Assembly: GCA_023910675.1 (NCBI GenBank)
Contig: JAAVWC010000002.1
Span: 1-64,000 of the forward strand
Direction of reading: 5' to 3'
From: Gemmatimonas sp.
GTDB lineage: Bacteria; Gemmatimonadota; Gemmatimonadetes; Gemmatimonadales; Gemmatimonadaceae
Length of the DNA: 64,000 nt
Below the pieces are notes generated by a model. It did no database searches. It had not been told where the DNA came from and saw nothing but the letters and a program-made list of their open reading frames with translations. Made by a program: the position numbers and the translations under genes. Positions 3,783 to 63,828 of this stretch are shown in pieces; position 1 is the stretch's first letter, and the number at the start of each line of letters is the position of its first letter.

Positions 3783-3968
3783 TCATGGCTCCGGAATTTC
3801 GAGATCGCGGCAGATCTTTCGCGCGAGATAATCATTCACCTCACGATGGCGCGGGATAACGGACGTCCGACGCGCGGGGCGATTAACGAAGACCGAGTGG
3901 TTGCCGCCCTCCCGGAGGAGGACACAGCCGTGCGCCTCGACATGGCGCACGAGATCGACGCGCTTCAC
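3783..3968 (-). CDS. hicA: HicA family toxin, mRNA interferase
   Basis: 61 residues, the usual HicA length. It has the double-stranded-RNA-binding-like HicA pattern: N-terminal KRVDLVRHVEAHGC, then REGGNHSVFVN containing the GxxH-type catalytic histidine, and the C-terminal NDYLARKICRDLEI. HicA toxins cleave mRNA; the partner antitoxin HicB is encoded immediately upstream with a 4-nt ATGA overlap, giving the hicB-hicA order. The gene ends at a probable attC site, suggesting arrival as an integron cassette. Confidence 0.85.
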   Translation of the reverse strand: MKRVDLVRHVEAHGCVLLREGGNHSVFVNRPARRTSVIPRHREVNDYLARKICRDLEIPEP

Positions 3969-4186
3969 GCGCTGAGGCGGAGGGGTTCGCGAATCACGGC
4001 GGCGCCCGCAAGGTCTTCTTCCGCCATGGCGCGATTCGCCTCCATCACGAGCACCACGGCCTCGCGTAAGTTGGCTCGCGCTTCGTCGAGCGTGGCACCT
4101 TGCGTGTTGGCACCCGGCAGTTCTTCTACGAAGGCAATGTACCCTTCAGGTACCGCCTGATAGACAGCAGTCAGCTCTACGGCCAT
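3965..4186 (-). CDS. hicB: HicB family antitoxin
   Basis: 73 residues with the degraded RNase-H-like HicB fold: YQAVPEGYIAFVEELPGANTQGATLDEARANLREAV, the canonical HicB core motif (E-x-P-G-x-x-T-x-G-x-T-x-x-E-A). It should bind and neutralise HicA. There is no C-terminal DNA-binding extension, so it is the short HicB form and may not autoregulate alone. Start ATG at 4186 is chosen because the domain begins there; the frame is open upstream to 4342 without conservation. Confidence 0.85.
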   Translation of the reverse strand: MAVELTAVYQAVPEGYIAFVEELPGANTQGATLDEARANLREAVVLVMEANRAMAEEDLAGAAVIREPLRLSA

Positions 4187-4458
4187 TGCGAACTCCGAGG
4201 TTGTTGGGACTCTTGCAATGTATGGTCGCCACGGCTGAAACGCACGCGTGCATTGCGCAACCCGCCGCATTGGGTCGGCCGGGCACTTGCCGCAGATTGC
4301 ACTGATCGTCCGAGCCGGCACGGCTCGTTGTCTGCTAGACATCCGCGCCCTGCTGTGGGGCCTGGAAACGATGCGGCAGGCGAAAGACGTCAGGCAGCCG
4401 ACGTCCGCGATGAGCCCCGTCGCCAGCAGCGATCGGGTCGGTAACTCCGAGGGAAGGG
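4187..4458. other. Intergenic stretch with one small hairpin
   Basis: No convincing gene. A 7-bp stem with a 3-nt loop (CGAGCCG/CGGCTCG, 4310-4326) is present without a T-tract. No second attC box could be recognised here, so the left-hand cassette boundary of hicBA stays undefined. Confidence 0.4.
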
Positions 4459-4791
4459 CTACGAATGACGATGGTGCGGAATTGGTGATGGAGCGATCGC
4501 AGCTGACACTGGGACCGCGTCGACGGCTTGCCCATTGCTGAGCGCTCTCTGGCTGTCCCGCGGGTCGGCTATCTCTGCCACTCGTTGCGCGGCGATATCG
4601 GGCTCGCCTGGTATTCCGCGCGCGAGCCAGATCGCACCGATTGCACTTAGAACGGCTTGGACGATGACCGTGAACCGACGGAAGTCACTCGCCTCAGGGT
4701 GAGCAGAGTACAGCCAGTTGACGGCTTGGAGCATCAGTCCAACGAGAATCCCAGCGATCATTCCGCGGACAAAGATCTGGCGTCGTGTCAT
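4459..4791 (-). CDS. Small putative two-helix membrane protein, unknown function
   Basis: 110 residues. Two hydrophobic segments are visible: roughly residues 9-29 (VRGMIAGILVGLMLQAVNWL) and 42-60 (FTVIVQAVLSAIGAIWLARG). A hydrophilic C-terminal tail rich in Ala, Arg and Pro follows. No family was recognised. It lies upstream of hicB on the same strand in a region of probable horizontal acquisition. An alternative start is the methionine at residue 11. Confidence 0.45.
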   Translation of the reverse strand: MTRRQIFVRGMIAGILVGLMLQAVNWLYSAHPEASDFRRFTVIVQAVLSAIGAIWLARGIPGEPDIAAQRVAEIADPRDSQRALSNGQAVDAVPVSAAIAPSPIPHHRHS

Positions 4792-58856: not shown

Positions 58857-59822
58857 ATGCAGACACTCTGGCGACGTATTTCCCGGGCGGCGCGATGGGC
58901 GCCGGTGCTGTTGGTTCTGGCGTGCGACCGGAGCCCGTCGCCGGGCGTCGGTGATTCAGCAGGCGGTGTTGCCAATGGTTCGGGGGCGTACAGTATCGCA
59001 ACGACCGTGAGCAGCACCGGCTGGGATATAGCCGCAGGGCCGTTCGTGGTGCTTCCCACGGTGGACGGCGGGATGGTGGCGGGCTCGTTGCTGCTCCCGG
59101 AGGCCACCGACAGGACGGTGAGCGATACGACCGGCGTTGGGGCGCTGCTGGGCGACGGTCGGCTCGAGCTCTTTGCCCGCGGCGGCAAGGTGGGGGTGGC
59201 GCGCATTTCGGTCGAGGCAGGCGCGTCTCCGGAACGCGGGTGCAGCGCGTGGCCGGTGGCCCGTTTGAGCGTCGATGCCGGAGTGACCGTGCTGCCGTGG
59301 ACGGCGGCCTTTGCGGCGGGGCGGGTGACGGCCATTCCGCTCGACTCCATCGAGGGGCTCGCGCCGCGCGATTCGGCGCGATTGGCGGCCGATCTGACGC
59401 GGCTCGCGTCGCGGTTACCCGATGACACGAGCGCGACATTTCGTGCACTGCCCTTCGTGGTGCTGCGCGCCTGGCGTGGGCACAACACCGACACCGAGGC
59501 GACTGGCGGCTTTGTGGTGGCCACGTTGGCTCGCCGCGTGAATCAGGAGGACGATCCCAAGGAGGAGCGTCTTGTGCTCGTGGTGGATGCGCCGGGCGCC
59601 GACAGCAAGGAGTGGACGGTTGGGTGGCACGAGCGCGCGTCGGGACATGAGGAAGAGCTCGTGGTGGCGGAGCCGCTGCTCGCGTTCCGCGCGACGGGTG
59701 CCCGTGACGTACGACTGCTCTTTGGCCGCGACGACGGGATCGCCCTCAGTGCGGCCGTTCTGTCTCAATCGGCCGGCGGCTGGCGCGTGTTGTGGGAAAG
59801 TGCGCTGGCCGGATGTAACTAA
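58857..59822 (+). CDS. Putative lipoprotein, unknown function
   Basis: A signal peptide with lipobox LVLAC, then ~300 residues without a recognised domain. The sequence is beta-rich with periodic hydrophobic stretches. Two extra cysteines (GCSAW and terminal AGCN) might pair. It is divergent from the transporter gene. No better assignment is possible from the sequence. Confidence 0.6.
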   Translation: MQTLWRRISRAARWAPVLLVLACDRSPSPGVGDSAGGVANGSGAYSIATTVSSTGWDIAAGPFVVLPTVDGGMVAGSLLLPEATDRTVSDTTGVGALLGDGRLELFARGGKVGVARISVEAGASPERGCSAWPVARLSVDAGVTVLPWTAAFAAGRVTAIPLDSIEGLAPRDSARLAADLTRLASRLPDDTSATFRALPFVVLRAWRGHNTDTEATGGFVVATLARRVNQEDDPKEERLVLVVDAPGADSKEWTVGWHERASGHEEELVVAEPLLAFRATGARDVRLLFGRDDGIALSAAVLSQSAGGWRVLWESALAGCN

Positions 59823-60358
59823 CGGGCGCACAAGATTGCGGTCCTCTTTTTCGGAGCCGCGTTATGTCTGCAGGAACCACGTGGGGCCGCCTGAGTGCGG
59901 TCCTTGTGGCTTAGACCCAGGCCTCTTCGCTCGGCGCCTCGTGAGCCGATCAAGTTCGCGCGCTATGCGCACGTGGCCAACGACGGCACGAGGGCTTTTT
60001 CCTGGCAGGACGACATCTGGGTGGCCGACAAGGACGGCGGCAATCTGCACCGGCTCACCGCTGTACCGGTTGCCCATCGACGGGTCGGCGCCGCGCGCCA
60101 TGTCCATGGCTGTTGGGCGAAGCGGCAGGATGAAGCAGGACGCCGACGTGTTCGTCTTCGACGTGCGCAGGAAGCGCGAAGGGAACGTGACGAAGAATCC
60201 GTTCAACGAAGTGAGTGGGTTCGGGGTCAGGGTCGGTCTTGATGACGGCGCTGATCCCGGCAGCCACAAGAAGAGCTCTTGACAGAAACGCGGGGGGGGT
60301 ACCGTGATGGTGTATCGAAGCACTGTGCGAGGTCAATCAATCAATCTGCGACGGTAAC
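59823..60358. pseudogene. Decayed WD40-like/Tricorn-type propeller fragment
   Basis: Two propeller-like fragments lie in different plus-strand frames. One, about 59946-60060, reads IKFARYAHVANDGTRAFSWQDDIWVADKDGGNLHRLTA, a PD40-type repeat found in Tricorn peptidases and amidohydrolases. The next, about 60065-60200, reads LYRLPIDGSAPRAM ... QDADVFVFDVRRKREGNVTKNPFNE. They are joined only through a frameshift and lack the rest of the protein. Boundaries are approximate. Confidence 0.55.
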
Positions 60359-61420
60359 ATGCGAGTGATATCGATTTCTATGCGGCGCTCTATGAGAGCG
60401 TTCATATGTTCCACGATAGTGCTATCATCGGCTGCGGGATGCGGTCAGCAGGAAGCGAGACCTGTAGATACGGGAGCGCTAAGCACGATAGGGTTCGACT
60501 CTGCTTTTCGACTTGTTGATTCGGTCACCCTTGAAGTCGATACCGCGACGCCTTTGGTCGCCGTGTCGGCATTCGCGGTTGCCGCCAACGGCGATATCGT
60601 AATCGCCGACGCCTCCGAGCGGCGCGTCTTCGTGTACGACCCCACTGGGCGTCGCTTGAGAGTTCTGGGCAGATCGGGAGACGGCCCCGGGGAATTCCGA
60701 CAGCCGCGTAACCTCGCTATAGCATCCAACGGCGATGTGCTCGTTGTGGAGGCCGTGGGAAAGTTCCATCGATTTCGCGGAGACTCACTCATTGGAACAC
60801 TCCAGCTCGACAGCGTGACGTTGGTGTCGAGTATGGACATGAACAGCGACAGCACGATGCTGATAACGACGTCCAACGGAAAGTCAGGTGCAGTTGTCGA
60901 ATACACCCTGGAAGGAAGGGTGAGGCAGCGTGTAGATCTGTTCACGACGGTGCCCGTGCGGAACGCGCCGGAGGATCAACGGTGGAGGTCTTTTCTCCAG
61001 TTGCGCGGAGCCGCATGCAACGGGAAGATGCGAGCGGCGGCGTCCATCAGCGATACGGTCTGGTCGATAGATCCGACAACTTTGCGCTTCTCAGCGAAGC
61101 GTGTCACGCCAAGCGGATATAACGCACCAAGGTTGCCAGGTGCGGCGGACAATGCCAATACGGTTGATCCCTTCAAGTGGATTAATCAGTTCGACGTGGT
61201 TCAAGGCATCTTCTGCAGCGGTAGCGCGTTCGCATTTTCCTTCGTTCGCGGAGCCAGAAATATCGGCGACCCTCAGGTTTTCATGCTGACTCTGGATGGA
61301 GAATCCTGGAGAGCGTTTTCCGAAGCGCCGCCGGTAATCGCCATGCGTGCTGACACGCTCATCACTCTTCGGGATAACGGGACCGCCGACTATGTCCTTC
61401 GCCGTTTTGTGGCACGGTAG
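60359..61420 (+). CDS. 6-bladed beta-propeller lipoprotein
   Basis: A signal peptide with lipobox-like AAGC precedes ~330 residues. Propeller blades show the pattern VSAFAVAANGDIVIADASERRVFVYDPTGRRLRVLGRSGDGPGEFRQPRNLAIASNGDVLVVE, typical of NHL-like 6-bladed propellers that often accompany secreted Cys-rich peptides in other phyla. Its 3' end overlaps the next gene by 29 nt. GC content here is clearly lower than in the window core. Confidence 0.75.
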   Translation: MRVISISMRRSMRAFICSTIVLSSAAGCGQQEARPVDTGALSTIGFDSAFRLVDSVTLEVDTATPLVAVSAFAVAANGDIVIADASERRVFVYDPTGRRLRVLGRSGDGPGEFRQPRNLAIASNGDVLVVEAVGKFHRFRGDSLIGTLQLDSVTLVSSMDMNSDSTMLITTSNGKSGAVVEYTLEGRVRQRVDLFTTVPVRNAPEDQRWRSFLQLRGAACNGKMRAAASISDTVWSIDPTTLRFSAKRVTPSGYNAPRLPGAADNANTVDPFKWINQFDVVQGIFCSGSAFAFSFVRGARNIGDPQVFMLTLDGESWRAFSEAPPVIAMRADTLITLRDNGTADYVLRRFVAR

Positions 61421-61967
61421 ACTCAGGTGTGACGGCCGTTCGGTCTTCGCAGCGCTGCTATTGGCGCTAAGCATCACGGCTTGTCAGGAGCGAGAAGCAC
61501 GAGTAGCAGAACGCAGTTCCGGATCAACCGATTTGAACAGCGTTGAAAACGCAGATTCCAGAAGCGGCATTCGCAACCTGCTCCAGATTTTGGATCCAGT
61601 CAACCTGCCATCACAGGGACCCCGTTACCTCGTTGTAATCGATGCCAAGGAATGCACATCTTGCAGCGGTGCGGGGCTTGGACTTCGCGAGCTACAAAGG
61701 CGAGCCCCCCACTCGTCCTTGGTGATTTTTGCAAAAGGCTTCGATAGCGAAATCTTGGAATTCTACGATCGCGAGCTCTTGGAGATTCCCAAACGTCACG
61801 TAAACGTCGGCGCGTTGAAATCCGCGATTGGTAAAGGTAGCGGCGGTGCTGTGGTAAGACTTTGCGGTAATGATGTGGCGGTACTGCGAACCTCGACGCG
61901 CGTGGATTGGCCGAAGGCGATTGATTCGGCGCTGGCGTTGCCGGCTTGCGATCCGGCATCTGGCTGA
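61392..61967 (+). CDS. Thioredoxin-like CxxC lipoprotein (putative)
   Basis: A signal peptide with lipobox SITAC is followed by ~160 residues. The block RYLVVIDAKECTSCSGAGLGLRELQRR places a CTSC motif at the end of a beta strand and before a helix, as in thioredoxin-fold oxidoreductases. No clear cis-Pro loop was identified, so the fold is inferred. ATG 61392 is chosen because the signal starts there; it overlaps the propeller gene. Confidence 0.6.
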   Translation: MSFAVLWHGRLRCDGRSVFAALLLALSITACQEREARVAERSSGSTDLNSVENADSRSGIRNLLQILDPVNLPSQGPRYLVVIDAKECTSCSGAGLGLRELQRRAPHSSLVIFAKGFDSEILEFYDRELLEIPKRHVNVGALKSAIGKGSGGAVVRLCGNDVAVLRTSTRVDWPKAIDSALALPACDPASG

Positions 61968-62027
61968 TGATTCAGCCACTGTGACACTCGATCGCATGGG
62001 TAAGACGTTCACAAACGAGGAGGAGAT

Positions 62028-62231
62028 GTGAAGAAGTTGATTGTGTTGATGATTCGTAGCGCTACTGCGCTTACGCTGGTGGCGGCGGCGCTCCCCGCTC
62101 AGGAGTTGCCAGAAGCAGGGGGAGGAGGCCCGGGTCTTCTCATCTTGGCTTGCAACGCAGACAAGAGCTACGTGTGCGGCAGCAGCTGCGGGAACTCTGC
62201 ATGCCACTGGTGCTGTACCACCTGTACATAA
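62028..62231 (+). CDS. Small secreted cysteine-rich peptide A
   Basis: 67 residues from a GTG start preceded by GAGGAGGAG. A signal peptide (MKKLIVLMIRSATALTLVAAALPAQ) is followed by ELPEAGGGGPG and a tail with seven cysteines: AC, VCGSSC, SACHWCC, TTCT. The second gene downstream has the same layout and shares ELP directly after its signal. Function unknown; a disulfide-rich secreted peptide or modified-peptide precursor is possible. Confidence 0.7.
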   Translation: MKKLIVLMIRSATALTLVAAALPAQELPEAGGGGPGLLILACNADKSYVCGSSCGNSACHWCCTTCT

Positions 62232-62244
62232 GGAGAAAGCCGAG

Positions 62245-62433
62245 ATGACAAAGCAACTACTTGTGTCAACCGTTGTTGTAGCACTCCTTCTCGCCCCATC
62301 CGCAGTGAGAGCCGAGGAGTTGCCAATCGAAGGAGAATCTCGTCCTTGGACGAAGACCGGGACGAATCCGGACGGCAACACATTGTGTAAGTCTGATCCG
62401 TGTCACCCTCCACTGCTCATCTGTTGCCTGTGA
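62245..62433 (+). CDS. Small secreted cysteine-rich peptide B
   Basis: 62 residues, start ATG with AAGGAG nine nt upstream. Signal peptide MTKQLLVSTVVVALLLAPSAVRA, then EELPIEGES and a tail with four cysteines (TLCKSDPC, ICCL). It lies 13 nt after the stop of peptide A, so both are one transcript. An IS256-type element is inserted 36 nt downstream and may have separated the operon from further genes. Confidence 0.7.
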   Translation: MTKQLLVSTVVVALLLAPSAVRAEELPIEGESRPWTKTGTNPDGNTLCKSDPCHPPLLICCL

Positions 62434-62468: not shown

Positions 62469-63828
62469 TCAAAAAGTGTGGAAATGAACGGCAGACGGTG
62501 GCACCTTTTCAGGTAACCCAGTCACCCCCGGGAGAATCCCGGCAACAAAAAGGAGCCACCGCCCGTGATGAAGATCGACATTCCTGCGACCGCGTCAAGC
62601 CCGACTTGGTCGACGCTGGAAACGTGTATTCGTGAGCAAGTGCAAACCTGCCTGCAGCGCGTGTTGGACGACGAGGTCGACGCGCTGCTCGGCCGCGGCC
62701 GTCATGAGCAGCGGGCGGCGGATACCGTCGTCGGCTATCGCAATGGCCATGGGCAGCCACGACAGGTGGCGTTGATGAACGGCACGATCTCGATTCGTCG
62801 TCCCCGCGTGCGTGGGCTCGACGCGCGCTTTGAGAGTCGGATCCTGCCGTTGTTTCAGCGCCGCACGCCGGAGATCGCGACGCTGTTGCCGGAGCGGTAT
62901 TTGCACGGCCTGTCCAGCGGCGACTTCACGCGGGCGCTGCGCGGGCTGCTGGGCGATGGCGCGCCGCTGAGTGCGAGCCGTGTGCAACGCCTGACCGAAG
63001 ACTGGCAGCGCGACTACGCGCCGTGGCGCACGCAGGACTTGTCCGCGCTCGAGCCCGTCTCCGTGTGGGCCGACGGGATTTATGTGAAAGCCGGCCTCGA
63101 GTCGACGAAGGCCGCGCTGTTGGTGCTGATCGCCGCGCTCGCGGATGGCACGAAGGTGGTCCTGGCGGTCGAGAGCGGCCACCGCGAGTCGAGCGAGCGC
63201 TGGGCGGAGATCCTGCGCGATCTCACGGCGCGCGGCCTGCCGGCCCCCGCGTGCGTCATCGGCGATGGGGCGTTGGGCCTGTGGAACGCGGTGGGCCAGG
63301 TATGGCCACACGCGGCGGAGCAACGGTGCTGGAACCACCAGCTCCGGAACGTGGTCGACGCGGTCCCGCTCAAACACCAGCCGGACGTGCAGGGCGCGGT
63401 ACAGCGCATCGCCGCCGCCGAATCCGTTGCCGACGCGGAGCAGGAGCGGCAGCGCTTCCACCGCGCCTATCGGCTCCGCTTCCCGAAAGCGTGCGAGCGT
63501 CTGGATCGCGACTGGGCGCGGATGCTCACGTACTACCAGTTTCCGAAAGAGCATTGGCGCCATCTGCGCACGACGAACGTCGTCGAGTCCCCCTTCGCGG
63601 CGGTGCGGCTCCGCACGAGCGCGGCCAAGCGTTTCAAGAAAGTGGAGCGCGCCACGGCGATCATCTGGCGGCTGCTGCGCGTCGCCGAGAAGCGCTTTCG
63701 CAAGCTGAACGCGCCGGAGCAGTGCCGCGATGTGTATCGTGGCGTCCGCTACGCCGATGGCATCGAAATCCCCGCTATGTCACCCACCCAGAAAGCCGCC
63801 GCCTGACGCGCATTTACACACTTCTTGA
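62469..63828 (+). mobile_element. IS256-family insertion sequence, apparently complete
   Basis: About 1360 bp with imperfect terminal inverted repeats: left TCAAAAAGTGTGGAAATGAA (62469 on) against the complement of the right end at 63828 (TCAAGAAGTGTGTAAATGCG). A short hairpin, CCGGGA/TCCCGG at 62528-62542, stands just before the ribosome binding site and could block readthrough from outside promoters, a known feature of insertion sequences. No matching 8-9-bp target duplication could be seen. Confidence 0.85.
62565..63806 (+). CDS. IS256 (mutator-type) transposase
   Basis: 413 residues, uninterrupted. DDE residues lie in VWADGIYVK (Asp), VIGDGALGLWNAV (Asp) and RTTNVVESPFAAVR (Glu), and the family block QRCWNHQLRNVVDAVP is intact. 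AAGGAG precedes GTG 62565 by nine nt; ATG 62568 is the alternative. Unlike the IS91 copy at the other end of the window, this element looks functional. Confidence 0.93.
   Translation: MMKIDIPATASSPTWSTLETCIREQVQTCLQRVLDDEVDALLGRGRHEQRAADTVVGYRNGHGQPRQVALMNGTISIRRPRVRGLDARFESRILPLFQRRTPEIATLLPERYLHGLSSGDFTRALRGLLGDGAPLSASRVQRLTEDWQRDYAPWRTQDLSALEPVSVWADGIYVKAGLESTKAALLVLIAALADGTKVVLAVESGHRESSERWAEILRDLTARGLPAPACVIGDGALGLWNAVGQVWPHAAEQRCWNHQLRNVVDAVPLKHQPDVQGAVQRIAAAESVADAEQERQRFHRAYRLRFPKACERLDRDWARMLTYYQFPKEHWRHLRTTNVVESPFAAVRLRTSAAKRFKKVERATAIIWRLLRVAEKRFRKLNAPEQCRDVYRGVRYADGIEIPAMSPTQKAAA

Follow-up and report, generated by a model that had tools for sequence, protein, structure and literature searches.

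The cassette at positions 60359-62433 of the stretch analysed here (the window; 64,000 nucleotides of a Gemmatimonas contig) is a member of a recurring three-part kit, in which small cysteine-rich peptides with signal-like N-termini are encoded together with a thiol protein and a beta-propeller lipoprotein. That this combination is more than a chance arrangement follows from the presence, in other genomes of the genus, of cassettes that unite these parts and whose peptides are related, and from the enrichment of peptide-like open reading frames (ORFs) beside propeller genes.

The cassette and its setting

The preliminary description of this region reported four plus-strand genes in a row, the second overlapping the first, and all four frames are indeed present (propeller, CxxC lipoprotein, peptide A and peptide B). 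Their features, and the element that borders them downstream, are as follows.

60359..61420, + strand: six-bladed NHL-type beta-propeller lipoprotein, 353 aa (PF17170; lipobox end AAGC)
61392..61967, + strand: CxxC lipoprotein, 191 aa from ATG 61392 (or from GTG 61347); lipobox LSITAC
61653..61664, + strand: codons of the CTSC motif of the CxxC lipoprotein (sequence)
62018..62023, + strand: AGGAGG ribosome-binding site of peptide A, ahead of GTG 62028 (sequence)
62028..62231, + strand: peptide A, 67 aa, with signal-like N-terminus (by eye), ELP and 7-Cys tail (alignments A7, A8)
62175..62216, + strand: CC-box of peptide A, CGSSCGNSACHWCC (motif, alignment A8)
62230..62235, + strand: AAGGAG ribosome-binding site of peptide B, sharing bases with the stop codon of peptide A, ahead of ATG 62245
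62245..62433, + strand: peptide B, 62 aa, with signal sequence, ELP and 4-Cys tail (signal rule, alignments A7, A8)
62386..62427, + strand: CC-box of peptide B, CKSDPCHPPLLICC (motif, alignment A8)
62565..63806, + strand: IS256-family transposase, downstream edge (NF033543, 275.8 bits against a cut-off of 150)

Read from ATG 61392, the CxxC gene shares 29 nt with the propeller gene, and the gaps after the preceding stop codons are 60 nt before peptide A and 13 nt before peptide B, both of which have a good ribosome-binding site. The cassette has a GC content of 0.55-0.59, against 0.59-0.71 on both flanks, which together with the adjoining IS256 element agrees with the low-GC, IS-bordered region described earlier. 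The window's assembly contains eight copies of this element with 97-100% identity, two of which adjoin peptide cassettes (that of the window and locus L034), and the mobile-island setting suggested for the cassette region matches the variable and IS-associated places in which cassettes sit. Upstream of the cassette, positions 59572-60282 possibly hold a gene remnant, for which no Pfam match was obtained in the two frames tried, and the upstream neighbour on the opposite strand resembles an MFS transporter by eye. Promoter and terminator scans gave results at chance level, and the repeats include nothing remarkable.

The DNA beyond the IS256 element had been proposed as a place to look for an exporter, peptidase or modification enzyme. 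The genes identified by Pfam in the 14 kb there encode Tex, an SNF2 helicase and a TldD-type metallopeptidase, with no exporter or modification enzyme recognised among them. Likewise, among the part of the neighbouring ORFs that was searched, neither an exporter or modification enzyme beside the window cassette nor neighbours of the RiPP type (modification enzyme, leader peptidase, exporter) near it were recognised. The TldD-type gene lies about 9 kb downstream of the cassette and adjoins an IS in L266; as a candidate leader-peptidase part of the cassette it was rejected because relatives are present in 30/30 same-genus genomes. The TldD loci (L031, 13370-16413; L266, 9163-10977) encode proteins with a Tat-like N-terminus by eye, and the TldD proteins of genomes G000 and G025 are 90% identical.

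Components of the cassette

The window propeller belongs to PF17170 (DUF5128), with 39.9 bits where the cut-off is 22.9, and a 12-propeller profile retrieves NHL propellers from the PDB with a best E of 1.6e-33. The 30 same-genus genomes contain 96 PF17170 propeller places. The two propellers closest to that of the window, in L118 (40%) and L167 (28%), stand without a neighbouring peptide or CxxC gene in the stretches examined; the window propeller as sole query against the genome contigs returned three weak and uninformative loci, and plasmids gave no propeller match. One PF17170 propeller lies inside a lanthipeptide-like cluster (L096; G021:C75, 1225-9592), where it adjoins a LANC_like protein and where LanB-like and GNAT-like proteins and a peptidase-domain ABC exporter were recognised by eye.

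The window CxxC protein likely has a thioredoxin fold, weakly shown by several indications. Both cysteines of its CTSC motif are invariant in a five-row alignment (A4). Members of the thioredoxin superfamily carry the CxxC after a strand and at a helix start in a beta-alpha-beta-alpha-beta-beta-alpha fold, and the motif agrees with this, as does the predicted strand/helix order of a low-confidence model (pLDDT 41.7). The protein has no Pfam match; a PDB profile search reached a best E of 0.027, and hhalign placed its CxxC against a CPYC protein at E 6e-4 and a probability of only 28%. Because of the low pLDDT, and because a fold search gave no match at E<=0.001, the model is treated as a hint.

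A CxxC lipoprotein is present at five of the six loci that carry CC-box peptides (see below), the contig of the sixth (L039) stopping just past the peptide. Elsewhere, DsbA-like proteins that exceed the PF13462 or PF01323 cut-off stand beside peptides (L116, L122 at 3867-4526, L160, L329 and L333), the Pfam confirmation in L122 covering one of its two DsbA-like proteins. Since such proteins replace the CxxC protein in its position in other cassettes, the disulfide-forming role proposed for the latter in the preliminary description is plausible. The middle protein of L034, L036 and the semi-core locus (see below) has only one of the two cysteines, so that redox activity is not to be assumed everywhere. 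A thioredoxin-like partner was found near 5/19 peptide-positive as against 4/77 peptide-negative propellers (Fisher p 0.014), in an automatic search that missed several partners recognisable by eye.

Peptide A contains seven cysteines after its signal-like part and peptide B four; the signal-peptide rule passed peptide B and not peptide A, whose signal was judged by eye. The two had been described as alike in signal and ELP motif and different in their tails. The ELP motif is common to both, whereas the identities do not set the two regions apart, at 36% for the signal and 36% for the remainder. Moreover, a motif C-x3-4-C-x2-7-CC, here called the CC-box, is common to nine peptides from six loci in five genomes (peptides A and B of the window, of L037 and of L038, and those of L039, L095 and L266), and its four Cys columns are invariant in alignment A8 of these nine. 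The motif was formulated post hoc, on peptides that had come by other routes beforehand. Its frequency in shuffled tails is 0.0008-0.092 per peptide, and a scan of 1,752,662 partly redundant bases yielded these nine and three others that by eye have no credible signal. The cassettes outside this set show unrelated Cys patterns.

L037 and L038 provide the only clear orthologous peptide pair, with 50-61% identity in the Cys core, 39-43% in the signal and 25-28% in the linker; the propellers of these loci are 39-41% identical and their CxxC proteins 39%. Thus, in this one pair, the core is conserved above signal and linker, the opposite of the conserved leader and variable core that had been read from the window peptides.

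None of the scanned peptides exceeded the curated cut-off of any Pfam or NCBIfam model (one subset was scanned without Pfam, the single exception being a relative of its last peptide), and the L034 peptide gave sub-threshold scores only, with TIGR04117 (17.8 bits, cut-off 50) and DUF6520 (16.8 bits, cut-off 25.4). Peptide A as sole query against the genome contigs produced 595 pattern matches and no confirmed relative; against 61 whole genomes it gave, besides itself, weak matches only, one of which (L020/L039) is a CC-box peptide. In a search of 99 genomes of the family with a six-peptide alignment, in which scoring covered at most 59 candidates of each genome and the sample included neither G012 nor G018, the convincing matches were the window's own peptides only.

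Recurrence of the three-part cassette

A search with the window CxxC protein yielded L037 and L038, loci of the same genus in both of which a propeller, two peptides, a second propeller and a CxxC lipoprotein follow one another. The window, L095 and L266 share the order propeller, CxxC, peptide; L106 has peptide, CxxC, propeller; L132 has peptide, propeller, thioredoxin-like protein; L116 has peptide, DsbA-like protein, propeller; and L122 has two pairs of peptide and DsbA-like protein followed by a propeller. The association of peptide, propeller and CxxC protein noted in the window therefore exists elsewhere, as homologous cassettes in same-genus genomes. It had been allowed that the two small frames might prove to have no homologues, or the propeller to occur always without peptides in other genomes; homologous cassettes were found, and some propellers have peptides beside them while others do not.

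The surroundings of the propeller genes were assessed by a fixed rule (a signal-like N-terminus, at least three Cys in a short tail, and a position not mainly within an ORF of at least 300 aa). A secreted Cys-rich small ORF lies within 2.5 kb at 21/96 propeller places of the 30 same-genus genomes, on the same strand in 19/21, and 75/96 places have no peptide by this rule. Control counts were one in 180,015 bases, none in window positions 1-58,000, and two in 132,366 bases surrounding TldD genes, which are unrelated; about 3.4 rule-positive ORFs would be expected in the 414,083 flank bases, as against the 21 observed. The corresponding Poisson values, 9e-11 for 21 and 7e-4 for 11, treat related loci as independent and serve as a guide only. 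The 21 places comprise 20 distinct candidates, namely one that is apparently spurious (G018:C388, on the opposite strand), eight semi-core homologues (one of them, L150, assigned by eye) and 11 accessory ones. The rule is conservative, having overlooked the window's peptide A, the L160 peptide, and homologues in L114 and L329. Twenty propeller regions picked from other genera contained no credible peptide, with one spurious candidate.

Genomic places of the cassettes

Cassettes are found in three kinds of place: a semi-core locus, an interval upstream of an RND pump operon, and scattered positions such as that of the window. The semi-core locus encodes a Cys-rich secreted protein of about 128 aa, a middle protein and a propeller; its representatives are L033, L098, L143, L136-L142, L251 and L252, and it was found in another genus too. 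Homologues are present in 15/30 same-genus genomes, and in the family sample the semi-core profile detected it in 4/6 same-genus and 2/93 other-genus genomes. Between G000 and G017 dN is 0.08 and dS 0.36; a second, very close pair (dN 0.027, dS 0.036) carries little information. This version would point to an older function in the envelope.

The pump operon encodes HlyD and AcrB by Pfam, with rho identified by Pfam in one genome (L334); the loci of its interval are L326-L345 and L358-L362, together with L034, L039, L099 and L116. There are 26 pump matches in 24 genomes. Among the 24 upstream regions examined, several of them shortened by contig ends, propellers occur in 14 and rule-positive peptides in six (G000, G002, G008, G017, G025 and G029), G003 being a seventh by homology. 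Sequence motifs of rho or of ruvX/mltG mark the far boundary in 14/24 regions, and of these two-sided intervals four are empty (467-563 bp; G009, G011, G016 and G027), eight have propellers and two have other genes. The peptide-bearing regions with both boundaries are those of G017 and G029 only, and their peptides are unrelated to each other; the contigs of G002, G003, G008 and G025 end before the far boundary. The contig of G000 shows no boundary marker within 25 kb upstream, so its copy of the neighbourhood is rearranged or lies elsewhere. Furthermore, the variable interval between rho/ruvX and the pump carries DsbA-like proteins in some genomes. The pump itself was considered as a dedicated exporter and rejected: it adjoins rho without a cassette in four genomes and is thus taken as a neighbour.

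Possible functions

With regard to function, we put forward, with the chances for and against it evenly balanced, that these are accessory cassettes, repeatedly reassembled, which make disulfide-stabilised miniproteins of the envelope that are folded by the thiol protein and bound by the propeller. The starting point, seen in the sequence itself, is two small proteins that each begin with a signal-like stretch and contain a compact Cys box, C-x3-4-C-x2-7-CC. Once exported, these peptides would be oxidised or folded by the thiol protein of their own cassette, a CxxC lipoprotein of probable thioredoxin fold here and a DsbA-like protein elsewhere. The gene association points to this step: because the trio recurs with interchangeable thiol proteins, oxidative folding of the peptides would be the most economical link between the parts, and a role of the thiol protein in peptide disulfides is likely. 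The propeller lipoprotein would most likely bind the folded peptide, which it might serve as a carrier, receptor or immunity protein, to judge from the associations of the genes, including that of the L096 propeller with a LanC-like gene. More speculatively, the peptide could act on, or be recognised by, neighbouring cells; the differing gene content of one interval in close relatives would fit such action and suggests a use between cells. We infer that the peptides may be bioactive, possibly as a bacteriocin/immunity-like or recognition system. In favour of the explanation put forward here are the enrichment of peptide ORFs near propellers, the gene order common to the window, L095 and L266, the invariant Cys columns, the thiol proteins beside peptides and the variable interval at the pump. 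The wide retention of the semi-core version is unlike a bacteriocin and counts against this explanation, as do the failure to recognise an exporter or modification enzyme beside the window cassette, the lone position of the closest relatives of the window propeller, the propeller places without a peptide (75/96 by the rule, and the 20 other-genus regions), the middle proteins with a single Cys and the weakly shown thioredoxin fold of the window protein.

A related proposal, which we consider unlikely, is an undescribed polymorphic, genus-specific peptide system, in which exported CC-box and other disulfide miniproteins would each be folded by a thiol protein of the cassette and recognised by a cognate propeller, with cassettes being gained, lost and exchanged at the pump interval and elsewhere. 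Such a system would amount to a propeller-based repertoire of diderm bacteria, either bacteriocin/immunity-like or serving kin recognition, and we rate it slightly lower than we otherwise would because the pump interval is two-sided in only two peptide-bearing genomes.

The same parts could belong to a periplasmic two-part complex serving envelope physiology, with the propeller as its large subunit, the Cys-rich peptide as a small disulfide-locked subunit and the thiol protein as an assembly factor, as might be modelled by analogy on methylamine dehydrogenase and its MauD/MauE. All the parts seem destined for the envelope, and next to the cassette no exporter could be recognised; the ~128-aa version is kept in many genomes and also in another genus, one semi-core pair shows a dN of 0.08 against a dS of 0.36, and the Cys core is better conserved than the linker, all of which favours such a complex. 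Nevertheless, we regard it as somewhat unlikely, given that the content of one interval differs among close relatives, that the window has two peptides for one propeller, and that the propellers are of the six-bladed NHL type, those of amine dehydrogenases being seven-bladed. The variable interval beside the pump, the IS256 element adjoining two cassettes and the existence of lone propellers would also be accounted for by common lineage-specific genes that gather in the same variable places as passengers without any joint action. This appears quite improbable in view of the gene order, with overlaps or short spacings, that recurs at separate places (the window, L095 and L266), the enrichment of peptide ORFs over controls, the greater frequency of a thiol protein near peptide-positive propellers, and the occurrence of the peptide-DsbA pair twice in L122. 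Signalling, with the peptide as a pheromone and the propeller lipoprotein as its receptor, would suit a small secreted peptide with a lipoprotein partner, and two peptides per cassette in the window, L037 and L038, but it is very improbable considering that inspection by eye of the genes immediately adjacent to the window cassette revealed none for a regulator, kinase or sigma factor, and that no export route was recognised either.

The kit of peptide, thiol protein and propeller offers a testable partner set for a large propeller family that is represented in Pfam by a DUF model. The cassettes also supply small Cys-rich secreted proteins, and no scanned member of this set lies above the curated Pfam or NCBIfam cut-offs. 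Should the peptides act between cells, the propeller lipoproteins would represent a novel kind of partner, for immunity or as receptors.

Comparison with known systems

Literature searches retrieved no paper that describes a link between PF17170 and Cys-rich peptides; in the openly licensed PMC literature, none was recognised that describes the association of propeller, thiol protein and peptide, and the word NVEALA did not occur in the openly licensed PMC papers searched. The NVEALA peptides (PF14055) of Bacteroidetes, to which the window peptides had been likened, and which in the view of the preliminary description would likewise accompany six-bladed propellers, are small, secreted and contain Cys; the window peptides are also small and Cys-containing and are predicted to be secreted. 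The difference lies in the sequence: the window peptides have no PF14055 match at E<=1, and 0/61 genomes have a match over the cut-off, the three weak sub-threshold matches across these genomes including none from the window peptides. Membership of the window peptides in this family was rejected on these grounds.

Methylamine dehydrogenase combines a propeller subunit, a small Cys-rich subunit and a thioredoxin-like maturation factor, a set of parts like that of the cassettes. MauD/MauE are mentioned in PMC7794033. The propellers here differ in being of the six-bladed NHL type, and the likeness is one of parts, not of demonstrated sequence relation. We know of no peptide partner of NHLRC2, another case in which a thioredoxin-like fold is paired with an NHL propeller. 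In NHLRC2 the two domains occur in one human protein (PMC6107167), a fusion that differs from the separate genes of the cassettes.

By analogy, the closest parallel in print that we found would be the bacteriocin TMcin with its own DsbA-like protein (PMC13252029, a preprint). In TMcin, a small peptide that is exported, disulfide formation is promoted by the cluster-encoded DsbA-family protein TmcD, and the cluster also contains an S2P-clan protease and an ABC transporter (PMC13252029). The word propeller is absent from the main text of the paper, and the window cassette differs in having a propeller and in that an S2P-clan protease and an ABC transporter were not recognised there. What the two have in common is a small exported peptide, predicted as such in the window, that is accompanied by a DsbA-like protein, borne by the cluster in TMcin (PMC13252029) and by the cassette in several of the loci described here.
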